A stretch of 10,140 nucleotides of DNA from an uncultured Bacteroidales bacterium. GTDB taxonomy: Bacteria > Bacteroidota > Bacteroidia > Bacteroidales > Bacteroidaceae. Below, piece by piece: positions 1 to 10,140 of this stretch; position 1 is the first letter of the stretch, and each line of letters starts with the position of its first letter. Made by a program: the position numbers and the translations under genes. Location of the stretch: contig CALZMA010000021.1 in the NCBI GenBank assembly GCA_945788445.1, positions 1 through 10,140 of the forward strand. The letters are read 5' to 3'. The notes under the pieces were generated by a model, which saw only the letters and a program-made list of their open reading frames with translations, was not told the DNA's origin and ran no database searches.

Positions 1-575
1 TCCCCGGGCTTGTCGATGAGAATGAGCGAGTCGCGGTAGAGCGCGGTCCGCTGGGTCCAGACTTCGCGCGGGTGGTTGAGCTTCGAGTAGTTGGCCAGCC
101 AGCCGCAGAGCGTGCGCCACGTGCGGTAATAGTAGAGGCGCAGGTCGGGGTATTGCTCGTTGATGTAAGCCGGACTCACCTCGTGGAGTTCCTGCGAAGC
201 CTCGGCATAGAGAGCCTGTATGGAGTAGATTTCAGCCTGTGCAATGTGGACGTAGGCATGGAGCACTTCGTCGTTGGCCTCATGGGCCATTTGCGCGATA
301 CAGTCCAAGTAAACCTGCGCCGAGTCCGTCTGGTAATGCGTATAGAGGCTCAGGATTTCCTTGTAGAGCGCAGTGCGGTTCTGTCCCTGCGCCGTGGCCG
401 CCTGTCGCTTCAGTCGGCTGATTTGTTCGCTCCTCACTTGGTGAAATTCCGCCTTGCGGTCCAGAATGTCGTCGAGCGCTTCCAGCGACTGGAGCGTTTG
501 GGCGTCGAAGTCGGTCTTTTGTCCCCAAAGCGGGCAGGTCAGGAGGGAGAATAGGAGGCAGAAGAAGATTTTCAT
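1..575 (-). CDS. susR: SusR-like starch-utilisation regulator, N-terminal part (runs off the left edge)
   Basis: An open frame on the minus strand begins at ATG 575 and is still open at base 1, giving about 191 residues. The start MKIFFCLLF... opens a classical export signal (residues 1-19, ending PLWGQ). An in-frame ATG at 581 would add only M-L and is the alternative start. The mature part is wholly helical and TPR-like. It has a charged segment (LEALDDILDRKAEF..., about 31-58), then a stretch around LYKEILSLYTHYQTDSAQVYL. This pattern resembles the N-terminus of the DUF6377/SusR type of Bacteroidota regulators. As I recall them, these carry a periplasmic helical sensor, a membrane span and a C-terminal cytoplasmic DNA-binding part, which would lie outside this window. 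The divergent position next to susA matches B. thetaiotaomicron susR, an activator responding to maltose or longer glucans. The family call is from recollection plus context; another TPR-type exported protein remains possible. Confidence 0.68.
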   Translation of the reverse strand, partial: MKIFFCLLFSLLTCPLWGQKTDFDAQTLQSLEALDDILDRKAEFHQVRSEQISRLKRQAATAQGQNRTALYKEILSLYTHYQTDSAQVYLDCIAQMAHEANDEVLHAYVHIAQAEIYSIQALYAEASQELHEVSPAYINEQYPDLRLYYYRTWRTLCGWLANYSKLNHPREVWTQRTALYRDSLILIDKPG

Positions 576-766: not shown

Positions 767-775
767 TTTATATTT
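767..775 (+). promoter_or_regulatory. Distal TTTATATTT copy upstream of susA
   Basis: TTTATATTT occurs here exactly as in the promoter-proximal element at 834-842, 67 bp upstream of it. The sequence before it (TTCTTCAAT at 754-762) only loosely resembles the CCATTCTAA half seen elsewhere. Because the region is AT-rich, chance is possible. The equivalent paired arrangement in front of susB makes it more interesting. Confidence 0.4.
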
Positions 776-807
776 TTCTTATTACGCGGAAATGCGTTTT
801 CTATGAA

Positions 808-842
808 TATCAGTGGAAAACCATTCTAAAACGTTTATATTT
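808..842 (+). promoter_or_regulatory. Candidate activator site of the susA promoter
   Basis: A composite element reads TATCAG (808-813), 7 bp, CCATTCTAAA (821-830), 3 bp, GTTTATATTT (833-842). The same blocks in the same order lie in front of susB at 3630-3674. In both cases the last block ends exactly 13 bp before the TTG of the -33 element, so the spacing to RNA polymerase is preserved. This is what a class II-like activator site would look like. Assigning it to SusR is inference from context. Confidence 0.6.
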
Positions 843-854
843 CAGTTCACCAAA

Positions 855-886
855 CTTGCGCTCCGCTTTCGCCCACCGTAATTTTG
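855..886 (+). promoter_or_regulatory. susA promoter (-33/-7 Bacteroidota type)
   Basis: The -33 element is CTTG (855-858) and the -7 element is TAATTTTG (879-886), an exact TAnnTTTG match. They are 20 bp apart, within the usual spacing for the Bacteroidota primary sigma factor. Transcription should start near 892, giving a short leader of about 25 nt before the susA start. The leader has no Shine-Dalgarno sequence, as is usual in this phylum. Confidence 0.72.
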
Positions 887-917: not shown

Positions 918-2768
918 ATGAAACAGACCCTTCTGTCTCTCCTCGTCCTCTTCAACTGCCTTTCTGTCTTTGCTGCATCCCGCCGCGGCGAAGTCCAGGT
1001 ACAGCCCGCCTTCTGGTGGAGCGGCATGGAAGAGCAGACCCTGCAAATCATGCTTCACGGCCCGGGTGTAGGACAGAGCGAAGTGAACGTTGCTGCCCCC
1101 GGCATTGCCATCGACAGCATCCACCGTCCCGCCAACACAAACTACCTCTTTATATACCTCAACCTCCGCGGCGCTGCCCCACAGAAGTTCGACATCGAAC
1201 TGCGGCAGGGACGCCGCGTGCAGCGCGTGGCCTATGAGCTCCGCCAGCGCGACCACAGCGTGAAAGCCCAGGGCTTTGACGCGTCCGACGTGCTCTACCT
1301 CCTCATGCCCGACCGTTTCGTCAACGGCAACAAGGACAACGACGTGGTGAAGGGCCTCCGCGAGCAGACCTCCGGCCAAGAGCCCGATGCGCGCCACGGC
1401 GGCGACCTCGCGGGCATGACCCTGGCGCTCGACTACCTCGCTGACCTCGGCGTGACGGCCGTCTGGCCCACCCCCTTGCAGGTGAACGACATGCCGTCCC
1501 ACTCCTACCATGGCTACGCCATCACCGATTATTACCAAATCGACCCCCGCTACGGCAGCAACGAGGACTACTGCAACTTCGTCCGCGCCGCCCACGAAAA
1601 GGGCATCAAAGTGGTGCAGGACATGGTGTTCAACCACTGCGGCTCCGAGAACTTCCTCTTCCGCGACCTGCCCGACTCCACCTGGTTCAACAACCGCAGC
1701 GTCTACAAGCAGACAGCCTACCGCATTGCCGCCGTGGGCGACAGCCACGCCGTTGAGGCCGATGCCGACAATGCCCAGAACGGTTGGTTTGTCTCGGTCA
1801 TGCCCGACCTGAACCAGCGCAACCCCCACGTGCTCCGCTATCTCATCCAGAACTCCCTGTGGTGGATTGAATATGCCGGCATCGACGGCATCCGCCAGGA
1901 CACATACCCCTACGCCGACCGCCGCGCCATGGCCCAGTGGAACGAGGCCGTACTACGCGAGTACCCCCGCTTCAACATCGTCGGCGAAACGTGGATCAAC
2001 CACAACGTGGGCGTGAGCTTCTGGCAGAAGAACTCCCCCGTGGCCCCCGCGGACAACAACTCGCAGCTCCCCACCGTGATGGACTTCCCCCTCATGGGCC
2101 TGCTCAACAGTTGTCTCGACGAGCCCACCAACGATTGGGACAAGGGCCTGGCCCGAATCTACGAATACCTCAGCCAGGACATCGTCTACGCCGACCCCTC
2201 CCGCCTGCTGACCTTCCTCAGCAACCACGACACCGACCGCTTCGCCCGCAACGAGGCGCAGGCCAACCAGCCCCACCGCTACCGCCAGGCGCTCACCCTG
2301 CTCCTCACGCTCCGCGGCATCCCGCAGCTCTACTACGGCGACGAACTCGCCATGGCGGGCAACAAGTCGAAGGGTGACGGTGCCCTCCGCATGAATTTCC
2401 CCGGCGGGTTTGAGGGCGACAAGGTGAATGCCCTCACGGGCGAGAACCTCCCGCCGCTCATGCGCGAGACACACGACTTCACGCGCCGCCTCCTCCGCTG
2501 GCGCAAGGGCAACGAGGTCATCGCCCGCGGCACATTGCGCCACTTCGCCATCAACCAGGGCGTTTACGTCTACGCACGGCAGCTCGGCGGCCGCACCGTC
2601 ACCGTCATCCTGAACGGCAACGACCGCCCCGAATGCCTCCAGCTCGGCCGCTACGCCGAAGTGCTCCCCGCCGCGGAAGCCACCGACGTGCTCACAGGCC
2701 GCCGCATCGACCTCTCGCAGGATTGCCTCCAGCTGGGCGTGCGCGAGACCCTCGTGCTGGAATTCTGA
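918..2768 (+). CDS. susA: SusA, periplasmic GH13 neopullulanase/cyclomaltodextrinase-like alpha-amylase
   Basis: This 616-residue enzyme hydrolyses alpha-1,4 (and probably some alpha-1,6) bonds of imported maltooligosaccharides, pullulan or cyclodextrins in the periplasm. Residues 1-19 are a signal peptide (MKQTLLSLLVLFNCLSVFA) without a lipobox. About 25-110 is the beta-sandwich N-domain typical of cyclomaltodextrinases. About 120-520 is the GH13 barrel, and the rest is a C-terminal beta domain. All catalytic regions are intact: region I DMVFNH (235-240), region V MPDLN (295-299), region II GIRQD (nucleophile D328), region III GETW (acid/base E357) and region IV SNHDTD (stabiliser D438). H198 in SYHGY and the PDRFVNG segment (131-137) also fit the family. 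The length is essentially that of B. thetaiotaomicron SusA (about 617). It has its own promoter and is followed by a terminator, so it is probably monocistronic. The start is fixed by the signal peptide and by the promoter about 30 bp upstream. Confidence 0.93.
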   Translation: MKQTLLSLLVLFNCLSVFAASRRGEVQVQPAFWWSGMEEQTLQIMLHGPGVGQSEVNVAAPGIAIDSIHRPANTNYLFIYLNLRGAAPQKFDIELRQGRRVQRVAYELRQRDHSVKAQGFDASDVLYLLMPDRFVNGNKDNDVVKGLREQTSGQEPDARHGGDLAGMTLALDYLADLGVTAVWPTPLQVNDMPSHSYHGYAITDYYQIDPRYGSNEDYCNFVRAAHEKGIKVVQDMVFNHCGSENFLFRDLPDSTWFNNRSVYKQTAYRIAAVGDSHAVEADADNAQNGWFVSVMPDLNQRNPHVLRYLIQNSLWWIEYAGIDGIRQDTYPYADRRAMAQWNEAVLREYPRFNIVGETWINHNVGVSFWQKNSPVAPADNNSQLPTVMDFPLMGLLNSCLDEPTNDWDKGLARIYEYLSQDIVYADPSRLLTFLSNHDTDRFARNEAQANQPHRYRQALTLLLTLRGIPQLYYGDELAMAGNKSKGDGALRMNFPGGFEGDKVNALTGENLPPLMRETHDFTRRLLRWRKGNEVIARGTLRHFAINQGVYVYARQLGGRTVTVILNGNDRPECLQLGRYAEVLPAAEATDVLTGRRIDLSQDCLQLGVRETLVLEF

Positions 2769-2998: not shown

Positions 2999-3350
2999 CT
3001 ATACGCTTTTTGGCCCCCGCAAAAACCTTTCAACCCTTCAGCCTGTACAGGAAAGCCCTTGGAAATCATAGCGAAATAGGCTGAAGGGTTTGAAATCCAA
3101 ACCCTTCAGCAAGGTTCAGCGATGCGGCCCCGCCAGTCCCTGCTTCTGTCGCGCCAAATCCGCCAACTGAAAATCCGGTCGCAGGCTTCGGTCTTTCCAT
3201 CGGCGGACTTGTGCCGCCGCCTGCACGGCTGAACCGTGCTGAAGGGTTGGAAAATCAAACCCTTCAGCCCTTTTTACTATGAAAACCAAGAGAAAACAAC
3301 AGTCGGCTGAAGGGTTGAAACATTTTTTCGGGGGTACAAAAACCGTATAG
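2999..3350. repeat. 352-bp nested inverted-repeat (MITE-like) element
   Basis: Left arm 2999-3120 and right arm 3228-3350 are imperfect inverted copies of 122 and 123 bp around a 107-bp core. Matched landmarks, in order inwards: CTATACG (2999-3005) with CGTATAG (3344-3350); a GCCCCCG/CGGGGG block flanked by A/T runs; CAACCCTTCAGCC (3031-3043) with GGCTGAAGGGTTG (3305-3317); CTTGG-N3-TCATAG (3058-3071) with CTATGA-N3-CCAAG (3277-3290); GCTGAAGGGTTTG (3080-3092) with CAAACCCTTCAGC (3256-3268), a perfect 13-mer; and GGTTCAGC (3113-3120) with GCTGAACC (3228-3235). Each arm also folds on itself, left 3080-3110 and right 3238-3268. Six CTGAAGGG units are present in all. The core has a further hairpin (CGGCGG 3201-3206 with CCGCCG 3214-3219). 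There is no open frame of protein-like character and no obvious target-site duplication. It could be a MITE, a REP/BIME-like palindrome or the remnant of an insertion sequence. Confidence 0.72.
3238..3275 (+). terminator. Terminator-like hairpin inside the repeat element
   Basis: GCTGAAGGGTT (3238-3248) pairs with AACCCTTCAGC (3258-3268), and CCTTTTT follows at 3269-3275. It has the form of a rho-independent terminator on the plus strand. It would back up the terminator at 2892 and insulate susB from upstream transcription. It is part of the inverted-repeat element, so termination may be incidental. Confidence 0.45.
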
Positions 3351-3597: not shown

Positions 3598-3629
3598 TTT
3601 GAGGGGAGCAGAGATGCAAAACCCTTGTG

Positions 3630-3674
3630 TATCAGCAAAAAAGCCATTCTAAAGGCCCCGAAAAGTTTATATTT
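3630..3674 (+). promoter_or_regulatory. Candidate activator site of the susB promoter
   Basis: TATCAG (3630-3635), 8 bp, CCATTCTAAA (3644-3653), 11 bp, GTTTATATTT (3665-3674). The blocks are identical to those before susA (808-842), and the last one again ends 13 bp before the -33 TTG. The spacer between CTAA and TTTATATTT is 13 bp here, against 4 bp at susA and 3 bp at the distal site. The difference is close to one helical turn. Confidence 0.6.
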
Positions 3675-3687
3675 TTTATTTAAGCCG

Positions 3688-3718
3688 TTGTACCCGCCTT
3701 TTGCACGTAGTACTTTTG
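3688..3718 (+). promoter_or_regulatory. susB promoter (-33/-7 Bacteroidota type)
   Basis: The -33 TTG (3688-3690) and the -7 TACTTTTG (3711-3718), an exact TAnnTTTG match, are 20 bp apart, as at susA. Transcription should start near 3725, leaving a leader of about 79 nt. It would drive susB-susC-susD and whatever follows. Confidence 0.72.
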
Positions 3719-3767: not shown

Positions 3768-5978
<2,211 letters not shown>

Positions 5979-6168: not shown

Positions 6169-9100
6169 ATGAACAAAAAGTCTTTTAACTCCAAGTTCCT
6201 GTCGCTCGTTATGGCAGGCGCTTGCATGTCGCTCACCGCTGCGGCCCAGAGCATCACGGTGAAGGGACATGTGCAGGACACGCAGGGCGAACCCGTGGTC
6301 TTTGCAACCGTCACCGTGCCGGGCACGAAGACAACTACCCAGACCGATGCCGACGGTAACTTCCGCATCAACGTGGCCGCCGGCTCCAACATCCGCGTGG
6401 CCTACATCGGCTACAAAACCGCCGTGGTGAAGGCCAACGGCACGCTCGTCGTGACCCTCGAAGACAACTCCACGCTCAACGAAGCCGTTGTAGTGGGCTA
6501 TGCCAAAGTGAAGAAAACCGATGCCACCGGTTCTGTCACCGCCATCAAGCCCGACGACATGACCAAGGGTATCACTACCAACGCCCAGGACATGCTCGTG
6601 GGTAAAGTGGCCGGTGTAGACGTCGCCACCGCGGGCGGTACCCCCGGTGCCGGTGCCAGCATCCGCATCCGCGGCGGTTCGTCGCTCAATGCCAGCAACG
6701 AGCCCCTCATCGTCATCGACGGTCTCGCCATGGACAACGAAGGCGTGAAGGGCCTCTCCAACCCCCTCGCCATGGTCAACCCCGAGGACATCGCCAGCTT
6801 CACCGTGCTCAAGGACGCTTCCGCCACCGCCATCTACGGTTCGCGCGCATCCAACGGTGTCATCATCATTACCACCAAGAAAGGCCGCAAGAACAGCCGT
6901 CCGCAGGTTTCCTACAACGGTAGCGTGAGCTTCGGTACGAAAGCCAAGACCTACGACGTGCTCTCGGGCGACCAATACCGCGCTTACGTCCAGGAACACT
7001 TCGGCGAGGCCGCCACGCTCCCCTTGGGCACGGCCAACACCGACTGGCAGGACCAGATTTACCAGACAGCCGTCAGTCACGACCACAACATCTCCATCAA
7101 CGGCGGCCTCGGCTGGCTTCCTTACCGCCTCAGCTTCGGCTACACCAATGAAGAAGGTATCATCAAGACCTCCAGCTTCGAGCGCTACACCGTGGCCGTC
7201 AACCTGGCTCCCTCCTTCCTCAACGACCACCTGAACGTGAACCTCAACGCGAAGTACATGTCGGCCAAGAACCGCTACGCCGACGGCGGTGCCATCGGTG
7301 CGGCCCTCAGCATGGACCCCACCCAGCCCGTCTACTTCGACCCCGCCGACCCCGACGCAGCCTACACGGGCGGCTACTACCAGCACATGCAGGACGCCAC
7401 CTTCAGCAACCCCGCCTGGACACGCCAGCCCAACACGAAGAACACCGCCAACCCCTTGGCCATGCTCGAGCTGAAGAACGACCACGCCAAGAGCGAAGCC
7501 TTCATCGGTAACCTCGAGCTCGACTACAAGCTCCACGGCTTCGAGGACCTCCACATCCATGCCAACCTCGGCGGCGACTATTCGCAGGGCAACCAGTGGA
7601 CCGAGATTTCGCCCCTCTCCGCCTCGAACCACTACTACGGCAGCAACTGGCGCGACGCGAAGTACAAGTACAACCTCCAGGGCAACATCTACGCCCAGTA
7701 CCAGCACCTCTTCGGCTACCACAACGTCGACATCATGGCCGGTACGGAAGCACAGCACTTCCACCACAACGGCTTCGGCGAAGGCGGCGGCTGGGACGAC
7801 TACCTCAAGGTAGACAAGGACTACCAGGGCCGCGCCACCACGGCCTACGCCTCGCGCAACTCCCTCCTCTCCTACTTCGGCCGCGTGAACTACATCTACA
7901 ACGACCGCTACCTCGCCACCTTCACCATGCGTTGGGACGGTTCCTCGCGCTTCGCCGACGGCAACCGCTGGGGTACCTTCCCCTCCGTAGCCTTGGGCTG
8001 GAAGGTGAAGAACGAAAAGTTCCTCCGTTCCGCAGAGTGGCTCTCCGACCTCAAGCTCCGCCTCGGCTGGGGTATCACCGGCCAGCAGAACATCGGCCAG
8101 GACTTCTACTACATGCCGCTCTACAACGTGGGTGACGACTATGCCCAGTACCCCATCGGCAACGACTACATGCACACCCTGCGCCCCAATGCCTTCAACA
8201 AGGACCTGACTTGGGAAAAGACCACCACGTGGAACGCCGGCCTCGACTTCGCATTCCTCAACAACCGCATCGACGGTTCGGTCGACTACTACTACCGCGA
8301 GACCAAGGACCTCATCTCCGTCGTAGACGTGGAAGCCGGTACGAACTTCAACAACCAGATCTGGAAGAACATCGGCAAGCTGCGCAACTACGGTCTTGAG
8401 TTCACCCTCAACGCCCGCCCCATCCAGACCCGCGACTTCACCTGGCAGGTAACCTACAACTTCATGTGGAACCGCAACAAGATTACCGAGCTCTACGGCG
8501 ATGCCGGCTACGTGGCTACGGGCATCTCCCCCTCCAAGCTCCCCGGCGGCGGTACCGTACAGGTGAACAAGGTGGGCTATCCCGCCAACTCCTTCTACGT
8601 TTACCAGCAGGTTTACGACGAGAACGGCAAGCCCATCGAAAACATGTTTGTGGACCGCAACGGCAACGGCTACATCGATGACGACGACCGCTACATCTAC
8701 AAGAACCCCGCGGCCGACGTGCTCATGGGCTTCACCTCGAAGTTCATCTACAAGAACTGGGACTTCAGCTTCACGCTCCGTGCAAGCCTCAACAACTACG
8801 TCTACTATGACTTCCTCAGCGACCGCGCCGACGTCAGCCTCGGCGGCATGACGGTCCAGAACGAGTGGACCAACCGCACCATGGAGCACCTCAACCTCGG
8901 CTGGAGCGGACAGGGCAACTACGCCATGAGCGACTACTTCGTGCGCAATGCCTCCTTCCTCCGCTGCGACAACATCACCCTCGGCTACAGCTTCCGCAAC
9001 ATCTTCAAGCGCGGCGGCTTCGACGGCATCACGGGCCGCGTCTATGCCCTCGTGCAGAACCCCTTCGTCATCACGAACTACGACGGCCTCGACCCCGAAA

Positions 9101-9186
9101 TCAGCAACGCCGACTACAAGGGCGTAGACAAGAGCTTCTACCCGCGTCCCCGCACCTTCATGGTCGGCCTCAGCCTGAACTTCTAA
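6169..9186 (+). CDS. susC: SusC, TonB-dependent starch oligosaccharide transporter
   Basis: An outer-membrane beta-barrel importer of maltooligosaccharides, 1005 residues from ATG 6169. This start is chosen because MNKKSFNSKFLSLVMAGA...AAAQ (1-27) is a clean signal peptide. The frame stays open back to 6016, but that part overlaps the hairpins and has no protein character. About 28-98 is the carboxypeptidase D-like domain (VKGHVQDTQGEPVVFATV... DADGNFRI). STLNEAVVVGYAKVKKTDA (101-119) is the TonB-box region and SusC signature. About 120-240 is the plug (LVGKVAGV, IRIRGGSSLN, PLIVIDG, VLKDASATAIYGSRASNGVI). The rest is the barrel, ending GLSLNF with the usual terminal phenylalanine. An EF-hand-like loop D829-RNGNGYIDDDD-R841 is typical of the family. 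No N-terminal STN domain is present, so signalling through an anti-sigma factor is not expected, which fits control by a SusR-type protein. Length matches B. thetaiotaomicron SusC (about 1002). SusD follows after 55 bp. Confidence 0.95.
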   Translation: MNKKSFNSKFLSLVMAGACMSLTAAAQSITVKGHVQDTQGEPVVFATVTVPGTKTTTQTDADGNFRINVAAGSNIRVAYIGYKTAVVKANGTLVVTLEDNSTLNEAVVVGYAKVKKTDATGSVTAIKPDDMTKGITTNAQDMLVGKVAGVDVATAGGTPGAGASIRIRGGSSLNASNEPLIVIDGLAMDNEGVKGLSNPLAMVNPEDIASFTVLKDASATAIYGSRASNGVIIITTKKGRKNSRPQVSYNGSVSFGTKAKTYDVLSGDQYRAYVQEHFGEAATLPLGTANTDWQDQIYQTAVSHDHNISINGGLGWLPYRLSFGYTNEEGIIKTSSFERYTVAVNLAPSFLNDHLNVNLNAKYMSAKNRYADGGAIGAALSMDPTQPVYFDPADPDAAYTGGYYQHMQDATFSNPAWTRQPNTKNTANPLAMLELKNDHAKSEAFIGNLELDYKLHGFEDLHIHANLGGDYSQGNQWTEISPLSASNHYYGSNWRDAKYKYNLQGNIYAQYQHLFGYHNVDIMAGTEAQHFHHNGFGEGGGWDDYLKVDKDYQGRATTAYASRNSLLSYFGRVNYIYNDRYLATFTMRWDGSSRFADGNRWGTFPSVALGWKVKNEKFLRSAEWLSDLKLRLGWGITGQQNIGQDFYYMPLYNVGDDYAQYPIGNDYMHTLRPNAFNKDLTWEKTTTWNAGLDFAFLNNRIDGSVDYYYRETKDLISVVDVEAGTNFNNQIWKNIGKLRNYGLEFTLNARPIQTRDFTWQVTYNFMWNRNKITELYGDAGYVATGISPSKLPGGGTVQVNKVGYPANSFYVYQQVYDENGKPIENMFVDRNGNGYIDDDDRYIYKNPAADVLMGFTSKFIYKNWDFSFTLRASLNNYVYYDFLSDRADVSLGGMTVQNEWTNRTMEHLNLGWSGQGNYAMSDYFVRNASFLRCDNITLGYSFRNIFKRGGFDGITGRVYALVQNPFVITNYDGLDPEISNADYKGVDKSFYPRPRTFMVGLSLNF

Positions 9187-9241: not shown

Positions 9242-10140
9242 ATGAAACTCAATTTGCTTAAATACATGGCGCCGGTGGCCCTCACTCTCGGGCTGGGCTT
9301 GGGAGCAGCATCCTGTGCCGACGACCTCAACCAATCGTCCATCGACCCGCAGACGCAGAGCGGCGTGGAGCAGGACGGCTACTACGCCAAGATCTACGGC
9401 CTCATGGTCCTCTCCGGCCAGAAGGGCGCGACCGACACCCCCGACATCTCCGACGACCCCGGCAAGAACCCCTTCTTCCGCCGCGTCTGGGAGCAGCAGG
9501 AATTCTCCACCGACGAGTGCCTCTGGGCCTGGCAGAACGACCCTGGCCAGTCCGAGTACCTCAACTTCAGCTGGGGCTCCACCCATCTCTTCACCCGCAT
9601 GCTCTACAACCGTCTCGGCTACAACATCACCCAGTGCAACTTCTTCCTCGACCTCTACAAGGACAAGACCGACGAAGTGAGCCAGCAGCGCTGCGCCGAG
9701 GTGCGCTTCTTCCGCGCCATGTACTACCAGTACTTCCTCGACTTCTTCGGCAAGGCACCCTTCAAGGACACCTTCAACGAAGAGAAGCCTAAGGAAATGT
9801 TGGCCCCCGAGCTCTTCGCCTACATCGAGGGCGAATACAAGGACATCATCGATGCCCTCCCCGAAGCCGACCCCGCCGGCAAGCACTTCGGCCAGGTCAA
9901 CAAGGTTGCCGCCTACATCATGCTCTCCCGCCTCTACCTCAACGCCCAGACCTACACCGGCGTGGCCAAGTGGGACGAGGCTGTTGAATGGTCCACGAAG
10001 GCCATCGAGAGCGGCTACGACCTGAGCCGCGCCACCTCTTCGGCTGGCTTCACGGGCTACCACCAGCTCTTCATGGGCGACAACGACCGCAACCCCGAGG
10101 CCATGAAGGAAATTGTCCTCCCCATCCGTCAGGACGGCAC
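9242..10140 (+). CDS. susD: SusD, outer-membrane starch-binding lipoprotein (cut by the right edge)
   Basis: The first 299 codons are present. The start ATG 9242 opens a lipoprotein signal ending GAASC, with C25 as the lipidated cysteine. The following A-D-D fits the acidic surface-export signal of Bacteroidota lipoproteins. The mature protein follows the SusD/RagB pattern: an N-terminal helical segment (SIDPQT, YYAKIYGLMVLSGQKG at 47-62), the loop segment TDECLWAWQND (90-100), then TPR-like helices (RCAEVRFFRAMYYQYFLDFFGKAPF, and later VAAYIMLSRLYLNAQTYTG). As I recall, B. thetaiotaomicron SusD binds starch through an aromatic arc including W98 with N101 and R81. W95/W97, N99 and R81 here lie at matching places. 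The sequence resembles true SusD rather than a generic paralogue. The 55-bp gap to susC has no terminator or promoter, so the two are co-transcribed. SusD forms the lid of SusC on the cell surface. Confidence 0.93.
   Translation, partial: MKLNLLKYMAPVALTLGLGLGAASCADDLNQSSIDPQTQSGVEQDGYYAKIYGLMVLSGQKGATDTPDISDDPGKNPFFRRVWEQQEFSTDECLWAWQNDPGQSEYLNFSWGSTHLFTRMLYNRLGYNITQCNFFLDLYKDKTDEVSQQRCAEVRFFRAMYYQYFLDFFGKAPFKDTFNEEKPKEMLAPELFAYIEGEYKDIIDALPEADPAGKHFGQVNKVAAYIMLSRLYLNAQTYTGVAKWDEAVEWSTKAIESGYDLSRATSSAGFTGYHQLFMGDNDRNPEAMKEIVLPIRQDG

Follow-up and report, generated by a model that had tools for sequence, protein, structure and literature searches.

A conserved dyad between the direct-repeat boxes of predicted SusR-type operators at the sus locus of a Bacteroidales bacterium and its relatives

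The sus locus and its two promoters

The window analysed here (the whole stretch of DNA, 10140 bases) is one whole short contig, C21, of a draft genome of 1.34 Mb that is 57% complete. It carries the start of susR on the minus strand, followed by susA, susB, susC and the start of susD, as listed below.

3..575, minus strand: 5′ part of susR, 191 codons, leaving the contig (NF058541 SusR_regulator, E 1.9e-25, residues 30-188)
918..2768, plus strand: susA, GH13 neopullulanase-type (Pfam Alpha-amylase and Cyc-maltodext N/C domains)
3804..5978, plus strand: susB, GH97 alpha-glucosidase (Pfam GH97 domains; SusB crystal-structure chains, E 0)
6169..9186, plus strand: susC (TIGR04056 SusC/RagA, above cut-off)
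9242..10138, plus strand: susD, leaving the window (NF033071 SusD, E 2e-103, partial)

The first-pass annotation, made from the letters of the window, had called the neighbouring gene SusR-type, and the NF058541 match bears this out; the score is far under the full-length cut-off because the gene is truncated by the contig end, and the remaining C-terminal part was found on contig C101 of the same genome. A SusR paralogue, scoring 482.5 bits and so above the NF058541 cut-off, lies at 758-2338 of contig C98 (genome G000; loci L147 and L199), and no box pair of the kind described below was found in the stretch of C98 searched. Between susA and the susB promoter, at 3010-3330 of the window, multiple copies resembling AAACCCTTCAGC were seen by eye in both orientations; they look like a dispersed repeat or hairpin cluster. 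The parts recognised in the two promoters are as follows.

767..777, plus strand: susA distal box TTTATATTTTT, 67 bp ahead of the proximal box
796..820, plus strand: susA central dyad, core 803-813 ATGAATATCAG (register +28 to +52 from the distal TTATATT; includes TATCAG)
821..830, plus strand: susA CCATTCTAAA, lineage-specific block (sequence comparison)
833..842, plus strand: susA proximal box GTTTATATTT
856..858, plus strand: susA -33-like TTG, without general conservation (exact in 5 of the 48 operators aligned below)
879..886, plus strand: susA -7 element TAATTTTG (TAnnTTTG, as quoted in PMC7366714)
3589..3599, plus strand: susB distal box TTTATATTTTT, 77 bp ahead of the proximal box
3618..3642, plus strand: susB central dyad, core 3625-3635 TTGTGTATCAG (register from the operator alignment)
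3644..3653, plus strand: susB CCATTCTAAA, lineage-specific block (sequence comparison)
3665..3674, plus strand: susB proximal box GTTTATATTT
3688..3690, plus strand: susB -33-like TTG
3711..3718, plus strand: susB -7 element TACTTTTG

Each promoter contains two direct-repeat TTTATATTT boxes, which are 67 bp apart ahead of susA (767/834) and 77 bp apart ahead of susB (3589/3666), and TATCAG starts exactly 41 bp past TTTATATTTTT in both. The susB spacing exceeds that of susA by ten bases; one of these precedes CCATTCTAAA and the other nine follow it, ahead of the proximal box. The blocks on which the first-pass annotation had built its proposal of a shared architecture were all found in place, with TATCAG at 808 and 3630, CCATTCTAAA at 821 and 3644 (after gaps of 7 and 8 bases), GTTTATATTT at 833 and 3665, then 13 bp to the TTG at 856 and 3688, and, 20 bp after it, TAATTTTGCA at 879 and TACTTTTGCA at 3711. 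Its further statement that the two regions diverge outside these blocks needs one exception, TTTATATTTTT, which is common to both at 767 and 3589; this is the strongest of the common blocks, and the annotation had passed over it. Comparison of the susA and susB promoter regions gave four maximal common blocks of at least 10 bp, while dinucleotide shuffles had a mean of 0.22 and reached four in 2 of 2000 cases.

Box pairs ahead of sus and malQ genes

Among 146 fetched loci, 15 TTTATATTT pairs were counted at 67 bp and 11 at 77 bp (at most one mismatch per box, duplicates removed), with a mean of 1.73 at the other spacings from 30 to 120, and for three unrelated control words the counts were 0, 1 and 4 pairs at 67 and 0, 0 and 3 at 77. 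A scan of 399 genomes of the family, which required a -7 element and two boxes spaced anywhere between 55 and 85, returned 73 matches in 55 genomes, with one reversed-pattern control match seen; the spacing was 67 in 24 matches, 66 in 16 and 77 in 10. The downstream gene was looked up for all 73, among which the row of G066 counts one operator a second time, through another pairing of its boxes, and that of G064 (spacing 78) possibly has the wrong distal box. Spacings of 64-68 and 76-79, classes chosen after the first set had been seen, placed 58 of 61 matches ahead of susA, susB, susC or malQ, compared with 0 of 12 at other spacings (Fisher 2.5e-11). With the same classes, a second scan covered 149 genomes of genus g3, taken as Bacteroides because the identity of its SusB proteins to that of the crystal structure reaches 97%, and its 35 new matches were divided in the same way (28 of 30 at the preferred spacings, 0 of 5 at others; three control matches). 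A match was obtained in 42 of these 149 genomes and in 55 of the 399, though the exact pattern misses many operators, such as those with altered distal boxes. The first-pass annotation had proposed scanning whole genomes for its motif, and in these two scans the box layout does recur ahead of sus genes at fixed spacing. Two other patterns served less well: an earlier one, with TTG instead of the -7 element next to the box pair, was poorly specific (14 matches versus 10 reversed-pattern controls), and the combination of distal box and dyad, with no proximal box required, was not specific, the list from the 399 genomes containing many matches.

In the ten SusR-SusB loci fetched from the second genus (L289-L298), a susA operator was present in eight and no site was found in L293 and L296. 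Both susA and susR match in two pieces in L296 (genome G453), so the two genes may be broken or misassembled. The 149-genome sample does not include B. thetaiotaomicron; the genome nearest to it, whose SusB shares 97% identity with that of the crystal structure, has a susA operator with the distal box CTTGTATTT and the dyad CTTATTATCAA.

The box pairs were also located ahead of malQ, in 28 matches of which 20 are non-redundant. The gene was called as GH77 plus CBM20 in three loci and elsewhere through similarity to one of these, and it adjoins SusR in five fetched loci. The 20 non-redundant malQ operators carry the same boxes with another dyad, centred at +34.5, and a TTT at +49 to +51. Unlike the malQ of many relatives, that of the window genome (L230, around 2220-2660) has no box pair upstream.

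An arrangement of this kind has been described before. For SusR-like operators, Ravcheev et al. 2013 (PMC3878776) predicted a pair of conserved sites repeated in the same orientation, with a long non-conserved spacer and 67 or 77 bp from centre to centre. In that paper SusR is an activator of susA and susBCDEFG; its background states that SusR binds both promoters, and its results that the DNA sites of SusR had stayed uncharacterised. The window agrees with the prediction in having direct-repeat TTTATATTT sites at 67 and 77 bp, ahead of susA and susB and with a SusR gene present, and since the 67/77 spacing is the same, the operator core is that known prediction, the agreement being one of structure and spacing. 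The first-pass annotation had given no established SusR operator sequence for this kind of organism; one had been predicted earlier, and an experimental test of the predicted operator was not found in the literature searched. The HTCS operators of Bacteroides, as described in the same paper, are likewise direct repeats ahead of polysaccharide genes, but with an average of 21 bp between the repeats, compared with 67 or 77 bp in the window operators. Judged by sequence comparison, the window promoters hold a real operator, the core of which had already been predicted. Relative to the examined sections of PMC3878776, the additions made here are the malQ sites, the central dyad and the phasing on -7 rather than -33; neither malQ nor glucanotransferase is mentioned in its main text.

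Column conservation between the boxes and at the promoter

The spacer described in PMC3878776 as non-conserved was found to hold a conserved dyad in 48 operators, YTRATWATCAR, whose distance from the distal box is the same in the 67 and the 77 class. For this analysis, sites were chosen by the boxes and the -7 element only, and the sus operators were aligned on the distal box. In an earlier set of 39 non-redundant operators, several spacer columns already exceeded the largest value of 2000 shuffles. Ten sites were added, and a 65% limit on spacer identity kept 48 of 55 operators, 33 belonging to the 67 class and 15 to the 77 class; the pair at 67 was used for L295, which has two overlapping pairs. 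Counted from the distal TTATATT, the left side shows A at +29 (42/48), C/T at +35 (43/48) and T at +36 (47/48), followed by G/A at +37 (39/48) and A at +38 (38/48), and the right side shows C at +43 (40/48), A at +44 (46/48) and A/G at +45 (47/48), followed by T at +51 (41/48) and A at +52 (38/48). Eleven spacer columns exceeded the maximum of 3000 shuffles, the top shuffled value being 0.42 bits versus 1.60 at +43. The symmetry of the 48 operators is centred at +40 with a score of 1.79, against 0.62 for the next centre and a median of 0.03. The TATCAG block named by the first-pass annotation is therefore real, as the right half of this dyad.

The C at +43 was present in 15 of 15 operators of the 77 class, which places the ten extra bases of this class between the dyad and the proximal box. 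When the alignment was anchored on the proximal box instead, the best C/G column fell from 83% to 56%. Ten further sus operators outside the 48 have spacings of 66, 68 or 78, and in several of them the dyad C is shifted by one base. The dyad is also conserved in eight susA operators of the genus taken as Bacteroides. By these comparisons, it departs from the published description of the operator and not from its core. The alignments, taken together with the scans, show the boxes, their spacings, the dyad, its register and the specificity for sus and malQ genes.

The block CCATTCTAAA fared differently. Though both window promoters carry it, and its only two matches in the 1.34 Mb draft genome are these two (reversed-pattern control, 1), it is exact in none of the other operators among the 48 and within two mismatches in just two more, so it does not stand as the operator block proposed in the first-pass annotation. 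The susA promoter of L003, which was dropped as redundant, carries CCATTCTAA in its place. This restriction of CCATTCTAAA to the window pair is what would be expected if the shared blocks had arisen by duplication of one promoter within the window genome, an explanation that is scarcely credible for the architecture as a whole; the same boxes, spacing and dyad occur in operators of six genera with otherwise dissimilar spacers, which refutes it for the boxes and the dyad at the level of sequence, and only CCATTCTAAA itself could still be a product of such an event.

Seven sus-like operators that had been excluded from the alignment (L283-L288 and L299) retain the frame of the dyad, with T at +36 in 6 of 7 and A at +44, A/G at +45 and T at +51 in 7 of 7, and have C at +43 in only 1 of 7, six of these loci holding a SusR paralogue in the fetched stretch and some being near-identical relatives. 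At no other offset did the frame trio occur in at least 4 of the 7.

IHF sites are asymmetric, with a WATCAANNNNTTR core. The right half of the dyad, WATCAR, resembles the IHF core WATCAA, and a central element that served as a bend site for an IHF/HU-type protein, joining the two boxes, was therefore considered. An HU-related gene does lie near susR in the related loci L187 (7802-8440, TIGR01201) and L188 (1374-2009), but in only these two. The columns are dyad-symmetric about +40, unlike the asymmetric IHF core, and the malQ operators have a different centre, so we regard a bend site as very improbable. Cur/BT4338 was likewise considered as owner of the dyad and rejected, the consensus wwwTATGTTnTAnAACATAwww given in PMC6989115 being, by eye, unlike YTRATWATCAR.

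The first-pass annotation had also emphasised a conserved distance to the -33 element. This did not hold across the alignment, where only 5 of 48 operators have an exact TTG at that place; it keeps two of three letters in two, is shifted in one and is missing in 40. What is kept within 2 bp in all 48 is the distance from the start of the proximal TTATATTT to the TA of the -7 element (43 bp in 37, 44 in 10 and 45 in 1), as measured within a search range of 42-46 and with the -7 element itself a selection criterion. The Bacteroidetes sigma-ABfr promoter consists of a -33 TTTG and a -7 TAnnTTTG, as quoted in PMC7366714. The kept operators share its -7 element, by which they were chosen, and the two window promoters have both elements, but the operators in general differ from it in the rarity of the -33 TTG. 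Since the -33 element is mostly missing and the phasing on -7 is steady, they resemble activator-dependent promoters that lack a -33 element and take their phase from -7.

SusR and the reading of the operator

The complete SusR relative of L003 has 555 aa, contains DUF6377 and scores 460 bits with NF058541, slightly under the cut-off of 480. In 28 SusR sequences and paralogues, 18 of the 41 invariant columns fall within residues 502-534, the helix-turn-helix region; no Pfam helix-turn-helix family was matched at E up to 1. The AlphaFold2 model built with these 28 sequences (mean pLDDT 86, pTM 0.62) has helical repeats that form a domain up to about residue 300, followed by a single very long helix and short C-terminal helices at 501-510, 516-523 and 527-538. 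The fold search with this model returned TPR and other helical-repeat matches among the top 50, and the matches of the profile search were one fusion and a pair of designed TPR proteins. The E. coli MalT is a TPR-type maltodextrin sensor with direct-repeat boxes, and its domain III (1hz4) is among the top 50 matches of the SusR model (rank 32, E 7.3e-3). However, SusR is membrane-anchored, and the match is to the generic TPR fold.

The reading that we favour, as somewhat more likely than not, is that of a three-part operator of the SusR family, in which the boxes and, most likely, the dyad are read by a SusR oligomer. Two direct-repeat TTTATATTT boxes, 67 or 77 bp apart and thus differing by about one helical turn, flank the dyad YTRATWATCAR, which sits in a TA...TA frame with its centre 40 bp past the point where the distal TTATATT begins. 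The 77 class has its ten additional bases between the dyad and the proximal box. SusR, a membrane-anchored maltodextrin sensor, would bind the boxes through its C-terminal helix-turn-helix, and we infer that it does so as an oligomer that also binds the dyad, loops the DNA and activates transcription. As the DNA-reading region and the box are common to sus, malQ and paralogue loci, the boxes are probably SusR-family sites, and as the dyad frame is common to sus and paralogue loci with varying inner bases, the SusR family probably reads the dyad too. These inner bases, which differ between SusR and paralogue loci, may carry specificity. The position of the proximal box, 43-45 bp ahead of -7, means that bound SusR could contact RNA polymerase, and it would do so at promoters mostly lacking a -33 element.

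The different dyad of the malQ operators leaves room for a second regulator. SusR might bind the two boxes only, with the dyad as the site of another dimeric regulator working with it, which would explain why sus and malQ operators have common boxes and different dyads. There is a precedent in five loci with GCAAACGTTTTC or GCAAACGTTTGC between the boxes, which we take to be LacI-like sequences, so that a LacI-like palindrome can occupy this place. LacI-type regulators are present in some sus loci, according to PMC11633381. We nevertheless hold a second regulator at the sus dyad to be rather doubtful, the dyad frame recurring with altered inner bases in sus-like loci that mostly hold SusR paralogues.

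The 77-bp pairs flanking GCAAACGTTTGC or a close sequence are at L283 2961, L284 4518, L285 6514, L286 6007 and L287 6520, and a SusR paralogue is present in the fetched stretch in 4 of these 5. Joint control by LacI and SusR is possible at these sus-like loci.

The dyad is the symmetric element of the operator, the kind of site that dimeric helix-turn-helix proteins ordinarily bind, and it changes between gene classes while the boxes are pure A/T. These features would suit SusR dimers bound to the dyad only, with the proximal box serving as a UP-like element and the distal box as an accessory element. Box pairs at the preferred spacings are, however, specific to sus and malQ genome-wide, which is unlike a general UP element, and this arrangement appears unlikely. 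Returning to the three-part operator, we suggest, tentatively and with less than even confidence, that two invariant outer boxes hold the regulator on the promoter while the central dyad, with inner bases that vary from one regulator to the next, picks the family member or partner, so that exchanging the centre among the sus, paralogue and malQ types could rewire maltodextrin promoters with the outer frame kept.

The sus genes form the founding polysaccharide utilisation system of the gut Bacteroidetes. A column-level description of the operator, with a third element, phasing on -7 and a ten-base insertion class, reduces its dissection to a small set of mutagenesis experiments. The malQ sites suggest that malQ shares the regulation of the sus genes, and the operator could serve as a template for building promoters that respond to maltose in gut bacteria.
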